Origin: a virus
DNA: 23,571 nucleotides
Direction: 5' to 3' (one strand)
Virus record (IMG/VR): IMGVR_UViG_3300025030_000420
Location: 1 to 23,571 of that record
The position numbers were made by a program, and so were the translations under genes. Shown here piece after piece: positions 1,462 through 10,207 of this stretch. Numbering within the stretch: the first letter of the stretch is position 1; each line of letters starts with the position of its first letter. The notes under the pieces are model-generated. The model was not told the DNA's origin. It saw only the letters and a list, made by a program, of their open reading frames with translations, and searched no databases.

Positions 1462-2616
1462 TTAAACGCAGTATGTAAAGGAGCCTCTGATTGTTGTGTT
1501 GTCGGCTAGGTCGGCTTCAGCCAGTGCCGCGGGCGTAATTGCGGCGGCAGATGCCGCATACAGTGGAGCTTGAGTCGCGCTAGCGTCGGCATATCCAGAG
1601 ATTACAGTCTTGGCTACAGCGAGATTGCCGAAATATCCCACTGAAACGGCAGCACGGGCACTGGAAACAGCCCCGACAGTGAAAGGGAGATTTTTTAGGG
1701 CGCAATTGCCTGTGATGGCACCTTTGGCACTTAACGTGATATAGAACGTGCAAAATACCTGACGACCAATTTTGGTATAGGTTCCTTGGTTTATCGTGTA
1801 TGTCTGACCGCTCTCGCTGGTCATGCCCCCCAATACAGGTGTCCAAGTTCCCTCCTCATAATCGTCTAGAGTGTTCGCATCGGCAGAGGGCACCTGCGTT
1901 GCGGGGAAGGTGATGCCGTCAGAAGTTTGCAGCCTTGCACCCGCAGCACTTGGTGTTACCCCCACGCCTACCCGTCCCGCACTGTCTATCGTCACCCTCG
2001 CGGTGTCTGCTGTGTAGAGATACAGGGTAAGGTAGTCCCCGTAAAAACTCCGCATGGGGATGGAGTAGCCCTGCTCGTGATACAGGCAGACCGCCGTTCG
2101 GTTGGTGGCTACTTTTTCCCTCGTCAGGTAGCTGATCCCCCTCAGCGAGTCTCCAATATAGATCCCGGTGGTGCCTGTCGCGTCGGCATCCCCCACCAGC
2201 TTGTTCCTGACGACAAATGCCGTTGATGCCGATGGAGCAGATGTCATTAAACCTGCGGTGAGAGCACCAGGCAGCACCATTGACGTATCGGTTCTGACAA
2301 CCGGTACCTGGTTCGCCCCCGGCGTCTGCGAGGCTGCGAAGCCGCCGAGGGTGGCGGCGTTGCCTCCTGCGTTCGCGGCGGCGGTGTAACTGGCGGCTGC
2401 GGCCGCGCTGTTGGCGGATGCGGTGGCGCTGCTGGCGGCTGCGGCCGCGGACGCGGTAGCGGCGGCCGCCTTTGCCGAGACGGTGGTCGCATCGGGGGCG
2501 ATTATGGCCGCCTGCGCCAGCAGGTCCTCGGCGAACTGCTCGGGGAAAATGCCGAGATAGCCGTAGCCGGTAAACGAGGCATTGGTGTAGCTGCGGCCGT
2601 TCAGGGTGACGCTCAT
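1462..2616 (-). CDS. Tail fibre protein
   Basis: The 384-aa product has the composite build of a siphophage tail fibre. Residues 1-40 are a conserved attachment-like N-terminus (MSVTLNGRSY, then LGIFPEQFAEDLL). Residues 44-85 are almost pure Ala/Ser/Thr and probably form a trimeric helical shaft. A fibre-type linker follows near residues 90-107 (LGGFAASQTPGANQVPV). Residues 200-260 contain VTIDSAGRVGVGV and DDYEEGTWTP, which often precede C-terminal fibre domains. Residues 260-384 form the beta-rich tip with TYTKIGRQVFCTFYI. The start overlaps the upstream stop as ATGA and has GAGGAGGT before it. Part of the tip-coding DNA (about 1680-1800) drops to 42-48% GC, suggesting that the tip was swapped in. 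A receptor-binding role is inferred. Confidence 0.85.
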   Translation of the reverse strand: MSVTLNGRSYTNASFTGYGYLGIFPEQFAEDLLAQAAIIAPDATTVSAKAAAATASAAAAASSATASANSAAAAASYTAAANAGGNAATLGGFAASQTPGANQVPVVRTDTSMVLPGALTAGLMTSAPSASTAFVVRNKLVGDADATGTTGIYIGDSLRGISYLTREKVATNRTAVCLYHEQGYSIPMRSFYGDYLTLYLYTADTARVTIDSAGRVGVGVTPSAAGARLQTSDGITFPATQVPSADANTLDDYEEGTWTPVLGGMTSESGQTYTINQGTYTKIGRQVFCTFYITLSAKGAITGNCALKNLPFTVGAVSSARAAVSVGYFGNLAVAKTVISGYADASATQAPLYAASAAAITPAALAEADLADNTTIRGSFTYCV

Positions 2617-3482
2617 AGTACCTCCTCAAGGGCGAATGCGACGGAATTGCGGTTCAGATAAGGGTTCTCCAGCGGGCTCAGCTCGCGGAAGGAGGCCAGG
2701 AAAGAGCGCTGCTTCAGCGCCTGGTAGGCGTCGTCGGGGTCGTAGACGAAAAAGAGCTCGCCGGTCACGCCGAGGCGGCGCTGCATCTCCATCCACCAGC
2801 CGGCCCCGACCGCCTCGGTCAGGTCCAGCTTGCCGGTGACGGTCCGGTACAGGCTCTTCCGGTCGTAGTACCTGACCCCGCCCAGGCTCTTGACGGCGGC
2901 GGAGGGGTCGACCCACTGGACGCCGCTGCCGAAGTCGAAACCGTAGGGGGACTGCCAGCCGGGGGCGAGCATGAGCCGCGCCAGCTCGAAGTAGCCGTCC
3001 GGGTTTGCCGGGTCGGAAAAGGTGACCTTGAAGGCGCGGCAGACCACGGGGGCGGGAAAGACGTGGTGGAAGTCGAGCGGTTCTCCGGCGAGGTCTTCGG
3101 TCGTTATGGCTCCTCCGGTCCAGGCTGCGGGATGCCCCCAGGGGAGCGAGCCGGGAGGGTAGAAGGGGGGCCAGAGGGGAAGCACGCCGGTGTCGGCGAC
3201 TTGGACGGTCCTCCCCGCGTCGCTGTAGAGCTGCAGGCGGACGGTGGCTGCGGAGGTCGCGTTGTGCCGCAGGACGGCGAAGATGCGGATGTCCCGGTCG
3301 GTGCCGAAATCGCCGAGGATGACGGTGGATCCCGACGCGAGATCGGCCGATCTGGCCAGGGAGGACATCCGGCTGTCGGAGTTGTCCTGCAGCTGCGTGA
3401 GCGGCAGCGCGGAGAGCCATGAGCCCCCGGACAGCGTGGCGGCGAGGGTCCTGTCAGGGTAGGCGAAGATGCAGTTTCCCAT
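2613..3482 (-). CDS. Distal minor tail protein (289 aa)
   Basis: The 289-aa protein starts MGNCIFAYPDRTL and lies between the hub and the fibre, three bases after the hub stop. It looks all-beta. Residues 40-170 alternate hydrophobic strands with Gly/Pro turns (STVILGDFGTDRDIRIF, VRLQLYSDAG) and a Trp/Pro-rich loop near 103-120, resembling discoidin-like jelly-roll modules of tail-tip proteins. The C-terminal part (RSFLASFRELSPLENPY) matches the general build of phage proteins that link hub to fibres. Only a GGGG-type weak ribosome site precedes the ATG, so translation probably depends on coupling to the hub gene. I know no firm family name. Carbohydrate contact is possible but inferred. Confidence 0.7.
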   Translation of the reverse strand: MGNCIFAYPDRTLAATLSGGSWLSALPLTQLQDNSDSRMSSLARSADLASGSTVILGDFGTDRDIRIFAVLRHNATSAATVRLQLYSDAGRTVQVADTGVLPLWPPFYPPGSLPWGHPAAWTGGAITTEDLAGEPLDFHHVFPAPVVCRAFKVTFSDPANPDGYFELARLMLAPGWQSPYGFDFGSGVQWVDPSAAVKSLGGVRYYDRKSLYRTVTGKLDLTEAVGAGWWMEMQRRLGVTGELFFVYDPDDAYQALKQRSFLASFRELSPLENPYLNRNSVAFALEEVL

Positions 3483-3485
3483 TGG

Positions 3486-5864
3486 TTAACCCCAGAGTGT
3501 AAGTGTGACCCGACCCAGCGCCCAGTCGACGGAGACGCCGGTGACCCGGAACAGCTTTCCGGAGGAGTAGCCGTAGCGCGGGGAGACGATGCGGACTACC
3601 TTGCCCGGATCGATGTATTCGAGCGTCTGTGCAGTGACGGTGACCTGCAAAGTGTCGCGCCGCACCTTGTGGAGCGCGAGCAGACGCGCGGCCTCGCTCT
3701 GCGCCGCCACGGGATCTATCAGCAGGGTGTCGACGTTGAGCTCCGGCGCGAGGAGGTGGGCGGTCTGCACGGAGGCGTCTGCCGTGGAGACCGTGCGGTA
3801 GGCCGCTCCTATCCACTGCACCCGCTCATTGCCCGGGCTGATCATGTAGCGGCTGGTTCCTACGCTGTCGGCTGTGACAAATGAGCCATTGCCGTAGCTG
3901 GCCGAGTCGGGCCAGGTCCAGGCCGGGTAATTGCGGGTGCTCCAGGACACCCCATCGGTGGAGAGGTAGCAGGCGTACTGCCCGATCAGCATGAACAACC
4001 CGCTTCCGTATGCGGAGGCCGTCCCCACCTTTCCGGGGATGGGGCGCTGGGTCCAGGTGACGCCGTCCGTAGAGGTGGCGATCGTGTCGCCGTCAAACAA
4101 GGTGGCGATGAATATCCCGTTTCCGGCAACGACCCCCCCCCACGGGGTGGCTACCGGGAGGGTGCGCTGGGTCCAGGTGGCGCCGCCGTCTGTAGAGGTC
4201 ACCCCGATGCCGCCGTTGGCGATCGTGACGAACGTCCCGTTGGCGTAGACCACATCCAGCCAGTCTGCACTGACGGGCATGGCGCGCTGGGTCCAGGTGA
4301 TCCCGTCGGGAGAGGTGTACGCCGTGCTGGTATCGTTGGCGACGATGACAAAGACGCCTGCTCCGAAGGCGATGGTAGCCGATGAGCTGTTGACCTGCGG
4401 CAGGGTGCGAACGGTCCAGTGGATCCCGTCGGGAGAGGTAAGGATCTGGTCGGAATTGACCGACGTCACCACGAACATGCCGTTTCCGTACGCAATCGAC
4501 CACCCCCGGAGGCACCACCCGGGCACCTCCCGGAAGTACCAGTAGATCCCGTCGGGAGAGGTGACTACCCCCCCTTGCAGGGACCCGTAGGAAACCGAGA
4601 CGAACACGCCGTTACCGTAGGCGAGCGCGTGCCACTGGGCTGAGTTGTCGAGGGTAGCCTGTTCCCAATGCGAGTAATCCCGCGCCGTCTGCGCGCTTCC
4701 CGCGATGTCGCTGGTCTGCACGGTGTAGTTTTTGGCGTAGTTGAGGTTCACCTGACGGACCGGGATGCCCCGCCCGGCGTCGTTGGAGGCGAGCCGCTCC
4801 AGGGTGAGGTACTCGTTTTCCGTCAGGGTTATCTCGGGCGTGCCGGAGGGGGCGGTGAGCTGCTGCATCCGCAGCACCCGGTCCGCGTCGAAACCGTACC
4901 ACGCGCCGACGCTCCCGAGCACCTGGTCCAGGGCGGCCATGACGGTCCCCTCTTCGGCGATGTAGATGCCGACCTCTGCGGAGTTGGCCGCGTCCAGCGC
5001 CGTCACGTCGGCCGCGCTGATCTCTCCGGAGGAGATGACGCGCAGCGCGATCCGCCTGGCGACCTGGGCGGCGCTGCGGTCCGCCGCCGTGCTCCCCTCT
5101 ACGGCGTCGGCGGTGATCTGCCCCACCGGAGACGCTCCCAGGCGGAAACAGCCGAGGGAGGGACAGACGCGGTACGTGCCGGGGGTGGGGGCTTCGGCCT
5201 CCATGGCGGCCTGGTCGGCGTAGTCCGAGCCCTTGGCGAGTTTCACTCCCTTGTCATAGGCGGCGGGGATGGAGACGGTGGAAGTGTGCACCTGGTAGAT
5301 GAGCTTGGAGGTATTCACCAGCACCGGAGTGACGTTATAGACGGTGCCGTAGGTGAGCGGCTTGGGCTTTCCCTTGATGTCGGCGCTCCCCTCGATGCCG
5401 AAGGGGAGCGCGTTGTTCCCGGCGTACTTGGTCGACTGGACCGGCGCATCGAACGCCATCTGCGGGTCCTTGACCCGGACCGTGATCTCGTCGTTGGTGA
5501 ATTCCGGCTGCTCCATGCTGCAGCTTGCCAAAAGGACGATGGCGCCCAGCGCGGTGATTTTTTTGAACACGATGTTTCTCCCGTCAAAGCCGTAGTCGAG
5601 GAGCGGATCGAGGAGACCGTCGCCGTTGATCAGGCGCAGTTCCCCGAAGCCTACCTGTGATTTCCCGGAGGTCCTCCCAGGGCGGAACATGTCGACCTGG
5701 TAGTTTCCCGGCTGCAGCACCCGCGGCGCATAATACTGGTTGGCGGGGGTGCCGCCCGGGGAGGAAGTGTAGCCGAGCGTCGAGTAGTAGAGGGTCCTCA
5801 CTCCGGGGAGCGACGGATCATAGACTGTCATCTCGACCAGGTATTGCTCCTTGGACGCGCTCAT
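3486..5864 (-). CDS. Tail hub/baseplate protein with inserted seven-repeat propeller-like domain
   Basis: The 792-aa product follows the tape measure directly (ATGA overlap), where siphophages encode the tail hub. Residues 1-400 read as hub: a beta-rich N-terminus (MTVYDPSLPGVRTLYYST), NGDGLLDPLLDYGFDGR near 80-96, then mixed domains. Residues about 408-676 are seven repeats of 35-45 residues, each with a YGNGxF-V-type strand and an SPDGxxWTxR-type strand; these look like BNR/sialidase-type propeller blades. Hub-like sequence resumes with AAYRTVSTADASVQTAHLLAPEL and closes with IDPGKVVRIVSPRYGYSSGKLFRVTGV. The propeller therefore sits inside the hub rather than at an end. The hydrophobic ALGAIVLLASC near residue 105 is internal and is not a lipoprotein signal. 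Host-surface or glycan binding by the propeller is inferred. Confidence 0.8.
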   Translation of the reverse strand: MSASKEQYLVEMTVYDPSLPGVRTLYYSTLGYTSSPGGTPANQYYAPRVLQPGNYQVDMFRPGRTSGKSQVGFGELRLINGDGLLDPLLDYGFDGRNIVFKKITALGAIVLLASCSMEQPEFTNDEITVRVKDPQMAFDAPVQSTKYAGNNALPFGIEGSADIKGKPKPLTYGTVYNVTPVLVNTSKLIYQVHTSTVSIPAAYDKGVKLAKGSDYADQAAMEAEAPTPGTYRVCPSLGCFRLGASPVGQITADAVEGSTAADRSAAQVARRIALRVISSGEISAADVTALDAANSAEVGIYIAEEGTVMAALDQVLGSVGAWYGFDADRVLRMQQLTAPSGTPEITLTENEYLTLERLASNDAGRGIPVRQVNLNYAKNYTVQTSDIAGSAQTARDYSHWEQATLDNSAQWHALAYGNGVFVSVSYGSLQGGVVTSPDGIYWYFREVPGWCLRGWSIAYGNGMFVVTSVNSDQILTSPDGIHWTVRTLPQVNSSSATIAFGAGVFVIVANDTSTAYTSPDGITWTQRAMPVSADWLDVVYANGTFVTIANGGIGVTSTDGGATWTQRTLPVATPWGGVVAGNGIFIATLFDGDTIATSTDGVTWTQRPIPGKVGTASAYGSGLFMLIGQYACYLSTDGVSWSTRNYPAWTWPDSASYGNGSFVTADSVGTSRYMISPGNERVQWIGAAYRTVSTADASVQTAHLLAPELNVDTLLIDPVAAQSEAARLLALHKVRRDTLQVTVTAQTLEYIDPGKVVRIVSPRYGYSSGKLFRVTGVSVDWALGRVTLTLWG
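3837..4643 (-). repeat. Seven coding repeats of about 120 nt (propeller blades)
   Basis: Seven in-frame units encode the blades within the hub gene. Blade cores start near residues 409, 454, 495, 534, 574, 615 and 652. Conserved parts are (Y/F)GxGxF followed by about 15 residues and SxDGxxW(T/S)xR. The DNA also repeats: on the plus strand, CGCTGGGTCCAGGTG or close variants recur at about 4045, 4165 and 4285. Blades 3-5 are the most alike, suggesting recent duplication. Blade 7 lacks the SxDGxxW motif and ends in SPGNERVQW as it merges back into the hub. Confidence 0.8.
4133..4141 (-). repeat. G9 homopolymer inside the propeller coding sequence
   Basis: Nine consecutive C on the plus strand read as G9 in the coding strand, across the Trp575-Gly-Gly codons of blade 5. 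A one-base slip here would frameshift the hub gene. The frame is intact as given. Confidence 0.9.
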
Positions 5865-8800
5865 CTGGAGTTCGCCCTCCGCAGCGCGCTCTCCACCTCG
5901 GCAAACTGCCGCTTCATCCCGGTAAGCTCCGCGACGACCGTCTGGTTCGCAGCGGTCTGATGACTCAGCAGGGCGCGCAGTTCCACGTTGCTCTTGCGCA
6001 ACTCCTCGTTGTTCTTACGCAGCTCCTCATTGTTCTGGGTAGCCTGCTGGCGCAGGCCGCGCAGTTCGGCGACCACGTCGCCCTCCTCCCCGGTTGCACT
6101 CTTGCCGACGACGGCGCGGGTCTTGCCTTCGGGGGTGTCGACGGAAGCGGGGTAGCTGTAGACGCCATCGTCGAAACGGGGGGCCTCGAGGCCGTTGGCC
6201 GCGGCAATGGATTGGGACACCCTCTCCAGCATGGAGGTGACGTAGCTGAAATCCTCCTGGTAGCCGATGCTGCTCGCGTAGTAGCCGCGCGAGGCGTCCA
6301 GGTAGGCGTTGGCGTCGCCGGAAAGCGCCGCTATGGCCTCCGCGTTCCCCTGGGCGGCCAGCGCCGCGTTCATGGCGAAGCGGGTGGAGGTGGTGTTGTA
6401 GAGCGCCTCGGGGGAGAGGGTCGGGTCGCTCATGGTCAGGTCCAGGATGGTGCCGCGCAGATCCTCGATCTGGTCGATCGCCTTTTTGGCCGAGTCGCCG
6501 ATGACGCCGAAGGCGTCGGAGAGCCCCAGCAGGGTCCGGTACAGGGGGGAGGTCATGTCGGTCGACTCCACCAGAGCGCGGTACTGGGACACGGTGCGGG
6601 GGATGGTGTCCAGCTGGTCGGAGAGGGCGGACGATATTTCGCGGTGCGCGGCGGCCAGACGGATCACGCCGTACTCGTCGTCGCTGTTGACCACCTTGTT
6701 GTATTTGTCCACGGCGCTCCGGAATTTCTCCAGCCCGCCGAAGGAGTCGATTATAGACGAGGCGAGGTCGCCGTTTGCGATGCTCGCTTCCAGCATGACG
6801 CCGTTCGTCACTCGCGCCGCTTCCTGGAGCGCCTGCAGGCCGATGGTGACCCGCATGAGCGCCGCATAGGATGTTTCGCCGAAACGGGTGGCGGCGGCGA
6901 GCTGAGCCTGGGCCTCGGGGCCGCCCAGCTGCTCGGCCATGGCGATGGAGAGTTTGCCGAACCACTCCTCGATCGCCTTGGTCGCTTCCTCTTCCGACTT
7001 GCCGCGCAGGTCGAGCTTGGTGGCTGCGAGGGAGAGGGAAGAAAGGTCGATGCTGAGCCCGCCCAGCGCCGCACCTGCGGTGTTGACGGATTGGGCGATG
7101 CTGTCGGCGATTTCGTTGAAGGATGCCATCAGCGCGTCGTCTATGGCAGTAAGCTTGGTCGTGGTCTTATCGCTGTGGAACAGGCCTCCGTCCTTCTTCA
7201 CCGTGGTGTATTGAGACGCCGACAGGGCACCGTCCTGGTAGCCGAGCTGGAGACCCGCTCCTTTCAGCGAGACCTTCCCCCCAATTACTTTATTGGCGAG
7301 GGAACCGAGCCCCATGGACTGGAGCCAATTCGCAACGCCGTAGGCTATGCTGTCGGTCAGGTTGTCCATGGAGTTGGGCTGGAGGGTCCAACGGTGGCCA
7401 GCGATAGTTGATTTGAGCAACGAATCCCCGCCGCTCAAAGCTCCCCGCACGTCGCCCTTCGCCCAATCCACCGCGTCGTCCCAGAAGGATGTTCCCTTGG
7501 GCATGCCCACCCCTGCAATCCGGGCGGCGGTGAGCCCGTTATTGGTGGCGATGAGGACCAGATCCTTCAGGGAGCCGGATACCTGGTGGAAATTTTCTGC
7601 CAGGTTCTGCACGGCGAGGGTGTTCTCGCGGGTCGCCTTAAGTTGGGCTTCGCCTGCGCGGGCCAAGGCATTGTTCGGTATGACGGTTCCGGCCGAGCCC
7701 ATCCGGATCAGCTCCGGCCCCTGTTCGCCTACCAGGTAGGAGCCGCCGGCGACGACGGGGCCGCCCAGGGCGCGAGGCTCGTACTCGGTCGCCTCGATCT
7801 TGGAGATCTGCGCTAGGGTAGCGATGCCTACACCTACGGCGGCGATGGAGCCGCCGATCGGGCCGAGCTGCGCGTAGGCCTGGACGATGGCGAGCGCCGC
7901 CGCGATGACCGCTTGCCCCATCATCATCGCCTTGCCGGCCTCGAACTGGTCGCGGTTTCCCTGCATCAGGGCGTCGCCGATCTGCCCCAGGGCGTTGGCG
8001 GTTATCGAGGCGTTGTCCTGCCAGCGGTTTCTCTCCGCCTGGACCGACTCCTGGACGTACTTCTCCTCCAATAGCCGTATCCGCTCGATCTGCGCGGCCC
8101 TGAGTTCGGTCCCCTCCTCCATCGCGGCGAGTTTGGCCTTTTCCAGCTCCATCTGGCGGGCGTAGCTGCGCTCGGCCGCCGCCGTTTCGCGCTCCCAGGG
8201 GGAGACGCGGTCCACGGCTATCTCGTCGCGCAGGGCGATGTTGTCCTGCATGAGAGAGGCGAATTCCTTGGCGGCGGCCTCGGCGCGCTCCGCGTTCTGC
8301 CTCTGCTGCCCCTCCCATGCGGAGGTCATGTTGGCCTGCAGGTCCAGGGCGTCCTTCATCTGCCTGGAGAGGTTGAGGTTCGCCTTTATCACCTCGCCCG
8401 CTGCGCGCAGCTCCTGCGCGTATTTGGGGGTGGCGGCGACCGCCTTCTCCACGGCGGCGTCCACGTCCTGCAGCCTCTTCTCGTGCTCGTCCAGGAGGGG
8501 GTTGGTCTGGCGGATCTGGGAGTTGAAATTTTCCATGGCCGAGCTGTACAGGCGCAGTTCCTCCGCGGCTGCGGCGACCTGTTTGGCCTCCTCGGCGGCG
8601 TCGGTGCCTCCCGCCCCGCCAGCGGCCCCTGGGGGTGCAGCCACAGTGCCTCTGGCCCTCTGCGTCGTGGACAGGTATTGGCCCGCCTTGTCCAGCATCC
8701 GCCCCATGGGGTCCTTCATGGCGTTCAGTTCCTCGCGGATGGCGATGGCGGTCCCCTTGACGACCTCCAGGTTCCCCTTGAACTTCTCCACATAGACGCC

Positions 8801-10207
8801 GGAGAACATCCCCTGCAGCGTCTTGCCCGCCGCGTCGAAGTCCCCCGTGAGCGCCTGGAAAGCGGCCTTTCCCACCGACGCGATAGCGGAACCGACGGCG
8901 CCGACCGCGTCGAGCATGACGAGCCCGAAGGACATGGCCATGTTCACGGCTGCGTTCAAGAGGTTTATCAGGTGGCGGAACTCGTCGGCGATCACCGGAA
9001 GCACAGAGGAAAGGAGCAGCCCCCAGCCGTCCAGCATCTTGACGGTGAGCCCCCCTATGCCGGAGAGAACGACCCACATCGGACCCCGCACGAGGTCCAC
9101 CACCGTGCCGATCACCCCCTTGGCCGCGAGCCAGGTCTTGCGGATGGCGTCGGAGACGCCGGAACTGTTTTTCAGGTCATCGGCCAGGGAGCTGACCATG
9201 GGGACGATATCGGCGAATGCCTCCTTAAAGCCCTCGCGGGTAACCTTGTTGACCGCGGTTTCCAGCGAGGAGCTGGCCGCGGACCAGGTCTTGTTGATGG
9301 ATTCGCTGGCGGCGTTGACGCCCACCAGGTAGGGAGAGAGCCGCTCCAGGGTGTCGCCGTGTTGATTGCCGAGCTGCACCAGCTCCTTGAGCCCCCCCTT
9401 GTAGTCGCCCTGGCGCTTGATCTGGGTATCGATGATGCGGGCCAGCTGCGAATGCTGGTTCACCTCTCCGGTCAGGAGGGCGCGCATCTCCTGCCGCGCC
9501 TGGATCTCCTGATCCTGGCCGGCCGTGTACATGGCGATGGCGTTGGAGAGGCTGGTAAAGGTTTCGACCTGCTTCCGGTTGTTCACGTCCAGCACGGTCC
9601 CCTGCATGGTCATGGTCTGCAGCATGGCCGTGAGCCCCTTGTTGTTGGCGAAGCTGTTGGCGTCGATCTCTTCCAGCTTTTCCGCCATCACCTCCGCGTA
9701 GGCCGCGGACCGCTGGAAGGTGATGGCTATGGAGTTGCCGTTTCCGGCCTGCATCTGGGTGAGCTGCGCGGCGATCTGGAGCACCGACACGGCGAAGGCG
9801 TCCACCACGGAGATGCCCCCCTTCATCAGGGAGAAGAAGGCCGCGAAGGGGGCGGCGATCAGTGCGGCGGCCATGGTCAGGTTCATCACCCTCATGGTGA
9901 CGGACATGATCCCTGTTTCCAGTTGCGACATCCCCAGAAAGGCCCGGTTGCCGTGGCCGTGCATCAAGTCGCCCATCCGGCGGCCGGCTTTTTCCATCTT
10001 GTCGAGCTCGCCTGCCGCGCGGCCCGTGGCGTTGCCGACGCCCCCCACGGCCTTTTCCACCCGGGCATGATTGGCTGCGGCCTGGGCCGTGGCGGAGGTG
10101 ACCTTGCGTCCCATGGAGTCGGCGGCGCCTTCGAGCTTCTGCATCGCCTGGGCGGTCTGCTCCACGCCGGTGGCCTTGATGTGGATAGCGATGTCTTTCA
10201 GGGCCAT
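5861..10207 (-). CDS. Tail tape measure protein
   Basis: At 1448 aa this is the longest gene and sits right after the G/GT chaperones, the standard place for the tape measure. It starts MALKDIAIHIKATGVEQT after a GAGG ribosome site. The build is typical: an N-terminal helical region with repeated Ala-rich heptads, hydrophobic segments near residues 103-150, 365-440 and around an Ala/Gly-rich stretch (AVIAAALAIVQAYAQLGPIGG), and long coiled-coil arms. The last 65 residues are a coiled coil with an obvious 7-residue repeat (NNEELRK, NNEELRK, SNVELRA). The protein sets tail length and is thought to leave the tail during DNA entry; the hydrophobic parts may help cross the host envelope. Using about 1.5 angstrom per residue (the lambda relation), the tail would be near 200 nm; this is an estimate only. 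Confidence 0.93.
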   Translation of the reverse strand: MALKDIAIHIKATGVEQTAQAMQKLEGAADSMGRKVTSATAQAAANHARVEKAVGGVGNATGRAAGELDKMEKAGRRMGDLMHGHGNRAFLGMSQLETGIMSVTMRVMNLTMAAALIAAPFAAFFSLMKGGISVVDAFAVSVLQIAAQLTQMQAGNGNSIAITFQRSAAYAEVMAEKLEEIDANSFANNKGLTAMLQTMTMQGTVLDVNNRKQVETFTSLSNAIAMYTAGQDQEIQARQEMRALLTGEVNQHSQLARIIDTQIKRQGDYKGGLKELVQLGNQHGDTLERLSPYLVGVNAASESINKTWSAASSSLETAVNKVTREGFKEAFADIVPMVSSLADDLKNSSGVSDAIRKTWLAAKGVIGTVVDLVRGPMWVVLSGIGGLTVKMLDGWGLLLSSVLPVIADEFRHLINLLNAAVNMAMSFGLVMLDAVGAVGSAIASVGKAAFQALTGDFDAAGKTLQGMFSGVYVEKFKGNLEVVKGTAIAIREELNAMKDPMGRMLDKAGQYLSTTQRARGTVAAPPGAAGGAGGTDAAEEAKQVAAAAEELRLYSSAMENFNSQIRQTNPLLDEHEKRLQDVDAAVEKAVAATPKYAQELRAAGEVIKANLNLSRQMKDALDLQANMTSAWEGQQRQNAERAEAAAKEFASLMQDNIALRDEIAVDRVSPWERETAAAERSYARQMELEKAKLAAMEEGTELRAAQIERIRLLEEKYVQESVQAERNRWQDNASITANALGQIGDALMQGNRDQFEAGKAMMMGQAVIAAALAIVQAYAQLGPIGGSIAAVGVGIATLAQISKIEATEYEPRALGGPVVAGGSYLVGEQGPELIRMGSAGTVIPNNALARAGEAQLKATRENTLAVQNLAENFHQVSGSLKDLVLIATNNGLTAARIAGVGMPKGTSFWDDAVDWAKGDVRGALSGGDSLLKSTIAGHRWTLQPNSMDNLTDSIAYGVANWLQSMGLGSLANKVIGGKVSLKGAGLQLGYQDGALSASQYTTVKKDGGLFHSDKTTTKLTAIDDALMASFNEIADSIAQSVNTAGAALGGLSIDLSSLSLAATKLDLRGKSEEEATKAIEEWFGKLSIAMAEQLGGPEAQAQLAAATRFGETSYAALMRVTIGLQALQEAARVTNGVMLEASIANGDLASSIIDSFGGLEKFRSAVDKYNKVVNSDDEYGVIRLAAAHREISSALSDQLDTIPRTVSQYRALVESTDMTSPLYRTLLGLSDAFGVIGDSAKKAIDQIEDLRGTILDLTMSDPTLSPEALYNTTSTRFAMNAALAAQGNAEAIAALSGDANAYLDASRGYYASSIGYQEDFSYVTSMLERVSQSIAAANGLEAPRFDDGVYSYPASVDTPEGKTRAVVGKSATGEEGDVVAELRGLRQQATQNNEELRKNNEELRKSNVELRALLSHQTAANQTVVAELTGMKRQFAEVESALRRANSR

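Follow-up and report, generated by a model that had tools for sequence, protein, structure and literature searches.

The window, by which we mean the whole 23,571-nucleotide stretch of IMG/VR virus record IMGVR_UViG_3300025030_000420 that was analysed, carries a set of tail genes on its minus strand, and in it the gene for a tail hub sits between the tape measure gene and a tail gene of family phrog_8610:

5861..10207, minus strand: tape measure protein (phrog_1538, E 2e-13), context for the hub call
3486..5864, minus strand: tail hub open reading frame with inserted propeller, 792 aa (phrog_8917; Foldseek match to T5 pb3; BFVD matches to EBPR gp72 and the Sansa hub)
4695..5864, minus strand: N-terminal part of the hub, aa 1-390 (phrog_8917 4-409; alignment to insert-less hubs)
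3834..4694, minus strand: inserted seven-bladed Asp-box/s-Asp-box propeller, aa ~391-677 (alignment, repeats and model), a net gain of ~286 aa over the median hub
3486..3833, minus strand: C-terminal part of the hub, aa 678-792 (second stretch of phrog_8917; alignment)
2613..3482, minus strand: tail-tip gene after the hub (phrog_8610)
1462..2616, minus strand: candidate fibre gene (weak phrogs; gene order places it where locus L094 has its propeller-bearing fibre gene)

The open reading frame at 3486-5864 is a siphophage tail hub of the gp27/pb3 type, as given by its sequence family, predicted fold and place among the genes. The match to phrog_8917 (E 1.2e-108) falls into two stretches that are confined to the flanks of the insert. 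The predicted hub model matches T5 pb3 (7zqp_b) in Foldseek with E 1.1e-10 and TM 0.41/0.45, and in the BFVD viral library it is matched by two hubs that have no insert, EBPR gp72 and the Sansa hub, the latter with a TMt of 0.81. Sequence searches of the PDB returned no match for the hub and nothing useful for the insert, and the structure searches listed almost only propeller matches, with hardly any for hub sub-domains. Hub proteins open and close the tail tube and are under strong constraint. The bacterial hits of this hub family are from Pseudomonadota and Thermodesulfobacteriota. Elsewhere in the window, a piece that runs from the end of the 289-aa gene into the start of the 384-aa gene has an upstream duplicate with in-frame stops (1094-1232 and 2583-2784, ~90% identity), and a truncated reading frame at 1-~1150 (minus strand) contains tandem GxFxLPAVxVQPVVAAPxLxG repeats and a stretch that by eye resembles FN3.

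Seven units of 37-42 aa, with the motifs [YF]GxGxF and S-x-D-G-x-x-W, lie between aa ~391 and 677 of the hub. Together with a strand close to the N-terminal end of the insert, they are placed as follows:

4653..4664, minus strand: aa 401-404 within HWEQATL, the strand that completes blade 7 as its fourth (predicted strand 401-404 with 654-658, 661-665 and 670-675)
4509..4634, minus strand: repeat 1, aa 411-452 (repeat alignment)
4386..4508, minus strand: repeat 2, aa 453-493 (repeat alignment)
4263..4385, minus strand: repeat 3, aa 494-534 (repeat alignment)
4146..4262, minus strand: repeat 4, aa 535-573, with the full Asp-box STDGGATW (repeat alignment and motif)
4032..4145, minus strand: repeat 5, aa 574-611 (repeat alignment)
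3918..4031, minus strand: repeat 6, aa 612-649 (repeat alignment)
3834..3917, minus strand: repeat 7, first three strands, aa 650-677 (repeat alignment and predicted strands)

The mean pairwise local alignment score of the units is 60.4 versus 20.6 ± 1.0 for shuffled sequences (500 shuffles, z ~41), which bears out the seven repeats that the initial annotation had reported inside the hub reading frame. TRF detected no DNA array of the repeat-unit period; the repeats have diverged at the DNA level and are therefore old. The same annotation had placed the domain at 3837-4643 (aa 408-676), and whereas the location holds, the boundaries were slightly off, since the insert is longer (~aa 391-677, 3834-4694). 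Its junctions shift as well: HWEQATL (aa 399-405) belongs to the propeller and not to the hub, and hub sequence resumes at about ERVQWIG (aa 679), before AAYRTV.

For folding, alignments A7 and A10 were used, and A4-A6, in which the last blade or the hub junction was out of register, were left out. A first AlphaFold2 model had six full blades and part of a seventh but lacked the strand that closes it, an omission probably due to trimming of the propeller rows. In a second model, with insert-bearing relatives in the alignment, there are seven sets of four strands (mean pLDDT 86.7), and blade 7 is formed by the usual 1+3 closure from the strands listed above. This blade takes its fourth strand from the N-terminal end of the insert and its remaining three from the C-terminal end, and both ends therefore exit from one blade. 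With VIA-align, the insert superimposes on the seven-bladed protein Vgb over 281 residues (Z 31.4, rmsd 2.9 Å), at a sequence identity of 12-14%, and it matches a designed seven-bladed protein with Z 26.6. The initial annotation had proposed a closed seven-bladed propeller and had named structure prediction as the check and another fold as the contrary outcome; the predicted structure is a closed propeller and matches solved seven-bladed propellers over the whole domain. As modelled, a closed seven-bladed β-propeller is therefore a well supported description of the insert.

The insert appears to belong with the Asp-box/s-Asp-box propellers (BNR, DUF6242, Ycf48), with which it shares S-x-D-x-x-x-W hairpins, one per blade (PMC2716378). 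Six of the seven blades carry an Asp-box, one of them full and five in the short form that has been described for this family (PMC2716378). Unlike those families, the window insert scores under the Pfam cut-offs, with DUF6242 at 28.4 bits against 29 and BNR_2 also below its threshold. An insert at the same site in L068, whose hub is 63% identical to that of the window, passes BNR (38.3 against 27), alone among six hub proteins scanned. No propeller with an established sugar ligand was found to match it.

Where the window hub has ~290 residues, 26 aligned relatives have 11-13. A terminal fusion of the propeller was considered and ruled out by the hub sequence on both flanks; the internal insertion inferred at the outset is confirmed by the comparison with hub homologues, in which those lacking the insert join the flanks directly, most by ~16 residues, and the repeats are not part of the core hub. 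It is thus well supported that the propeller is inserted into a hub loop that is empty in most homologues. An extra domain in a core tail-tip protein that relatives lack is also the feature by which Dit and Tal proteins are called evolved.

A census of ~123 non-redundant hub open reading frames, in which four inter-block gaps were measured, revealed three loops that hold such inserts. At site 1, the loop filled in the window, the gap is either at most 32 residues (median 16) or 296-316, with nothing between; at site 2, a loop near the C-terminus, it is up to 9 or 295-323; and at site 3, in the N-terminal half, it is up to 66 or, in L148, 322. The last two loops are empty in the window hub:

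3597..3632, minus strand: site 2 loop, aa ~745-756, insertion site of Kelch domains in relatives
5178..5246, minus strand: site 3 loop, aa ~207-229, insertion site of L148

Asp-box propellers occupy site 1 in 11 of the ~123 hubs (the window, L030, L068, L069, L070, L079, L085, L156, L176, L177 and the truncated L071), Kelch-type inserts occupy site 2 in 10 (L072, L073, L081, L084, L087, L105, L118, L157, L158 and L159), and a single hub (L148) has an Asp-box-like propeller at site 3, proportions that are no estimate of natural frequencies because the loci came from motif scans that had in part been constructed with insert-bearing hubs, a non-random sample in which close relatives are counted. 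The Kelch assignment comes from Pfam for L072 (E 1e-26) and L073 (1e-29) and from the repeat pattern by eye for the other eight, three of which (L084, L087 and L158) have degenerate repeats; that of L148 is a sequence call with DUF6242 below its cut-off. None of the ~123 hubs has two inserts. In the hub phylogeny, the carriers at site 1 form one clade (SH-aLRT 96) and so do those at site 2 (92); each group needs a single change, which is most simply read as one gain at each site. The hub family has recruited propellers repeatedly. Other additions were also seen in the family: three distant relatives (L182, L183 and L184) have, roughly where the third loop lies, a different β-rich insert with FxWSxDGGxTW repeats, and the hubs of L004, L017, L095 and L102 have ~400 extra N-terminal residues, which in EBPR gp72 (L004) are GxFxLxGQ-type repeats.

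Several observations indicate that the inserts diverge fast and patchily. Across the census their lengths are near-constant while their sequences diverge faster than the hub. Insert identity is lower than hub identity in all 28 site-1 Asp-box pairs (means 39 versus 56%) and in 41 of the 45 site-2 Kelch pairs (34 versus 48%). The hubs of L072 and L073 are 95% identical and their inserts 51%, and at the DNA level the two are near-identical on both sides with no collinear match across the insert. Genome G008 contains three related prophages with propeller-bearing hubs (L175, L176 and L177); its prophages C4 and C12 share 83% nucleotide identity over the tape measure gene and the N-terminal part of the hub and 90% beyond the propeller on the 3' side, with no collinear nucleotide match across the propeller region. 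Between the insert sequences of the near-copies C12 and C14 there are ~24 synonymous changes and one nonsynonymous change (~0.11 synonymous changes per site); as nearly all are synonymous, the insert is kept by selection and constrained on this short scale.

It is tempting to see the hub as a general socket, in which at least three loops take interchangeable Asp-box or Kelch cassettes, one per hub, that are exchanged between phages and with fibre genes and act as a host-range switch. Other phage proteins frequently contain related propellers, often made of seven repeats. L094 has an insert-less hub, and there a propeller is borne by the gene two places downstream, which has a weak Collar match; this fibre-gene propeller is 57% identical to the hub insert of L069. 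Given the single clade at site 1 and the correlation between insert and hub identity (r 0.72), fast vertical divergence explains the data at that site as well as exchange does. A single clade of hub inserts is neither supported nor rejected (p-AU 0.12) in a poorly resolved tree of inserts and free-standing propellers. Despite their 51% identity, the inserts of L072 and L073 are sisters in the Kelch tree, so that support reaches only to very fast or piecemeal change and not to exchange with a distant donor. We hold the socket idea as tentative, and rather doubtful in its full form. Separately, a 2053-aa phage protein (L046, 1917-8078) was seen to carry ~28 repeats of Asp-box type, which may make up four consecutive propellers.

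Three other roles for the propeller have to be weighed. It could be an assembly or docking platform for another tail-tip protein, for example a side fibre, without host contact. Protein-binding platforms are frequent among propellers, and the Asp-box assembly factor Ycf48 is among the matches; yet the majority of the family's hubs lack the domain, and the inserts of L072 and L073, half different at 95% hub identity, do not resemble a conserved partner surface, so we consider this unlikely. Sialidase propellers have six blades, against seven here, and a FRIP-like motif was absent from all hub inserts checked, although this counts only against a sialidase. An enzymatic role in cleaving a polymer of the host surface, be it as a sialidase, a lyase or another depolymerase, nevertheless has two points in its favour, namely that glycosidases often have Asp-box propellers (PMC2716378) and that the top structural match, Vgb, is a lyase; with the low identity to Vgb already given, we regard it as improbable. 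That the propeller is an ornament which the hub tolerates and which adheres weakly and non-specifically, or that it is a neutral insertion, is very improbable, for although decorating domains are frequent on hubs and tube proteins (PMC7291167, PMC10721106), the near-copies show almost no amino-acid change, insert length is near-constant and two propeller families were taken up at different loops.

Our preferred reading, to which we give a probability of about 0.62, is that this is an 'evolved hub', a gp27/pb3-type hub with a complete seven-bladed Asp-box-type propeller in the loop that precedes its C-terminal part, most likely an accessory module for binding the host surface. As modelled, the insert closes on itself, with the hub chain continuing from the same blade where both ends exit. 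Known hubs of the gp27/pb3 type are trimers, and three propellers would be expected at the tail tip. The fold, the insertion and its absence in relatives are computed results; exposure at the tip, the binding of a ligand and an effect on adsorption are suggested by precedents (PMC7291167, PMC10688798, PMC4901313), from which a surface sugar would be the default guess for the ligand. The initial annotation had also put the propeller on the side of the tip, where it could bind a host surface glycan; this is conjecture, which the fast and patchy divergence of the inserts and the occurrence of an insert relative in a fibre gene strengthen. Since another fibre candidate lies downstream, the main role in receptor binding need not fall to the propeller.

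Hub insertions (T5, lambda) and propellers as receptor-binding domains are already known, separately. The closest parallel may be the evolved Dit and Tal proteins of Lactobacillus, lactococcal and streptococcal phages, which are likewise conserved tail-tip proteins with a binding-type domain in one loop, and have insert-less relatives (PMC7291167, PMC10688798); their inserts are CBMs in phages of Gram-positive hosts, whereas here they are propellers, with three loops as alternative sites. T5 pb3 and lambda gpJ share the hub fold and have domains inserted in hub loops, an hdII insertion and a plug in T5 and a β-sandwich in HDIV in lambda, but these are of plug, Ig/FNIII or OB type and none is a propeller (PMC10038345, PMC10721106, PMC11101478). 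The phi11 receptor-binding protein Gp45 and phiKZ gp131C are tail-apparatus propellers with a suspected receptor-binding role, and Gp45 resembles the present insert in that its last blade is closed by an N-terminal strand (PMC4901313); they are, however, receptor-binding or peripheral baseplate proteins and not inserts of a central hub, and Gp45 has five blades instead of seven. A propeller inside a siphophage hub was found neither in the open-licence papers searched nor among the top BFVD matches. No record among 50,697 isolate phages covers at least 80% of the window hub protein, so that it is chiefly in uncultured phages and prophages that the arrangement can be seen, and a viral scan with the L030 hub gave no match.

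Propellers in different loops of a kept hub show which loops tolerate large domains. By analogy with the known systems, add-on parts in hub loops probably help the virus to grip its host, and this hub family offers natural pairs with and without an insert for asking whether hub-borne domains affect adsorption.
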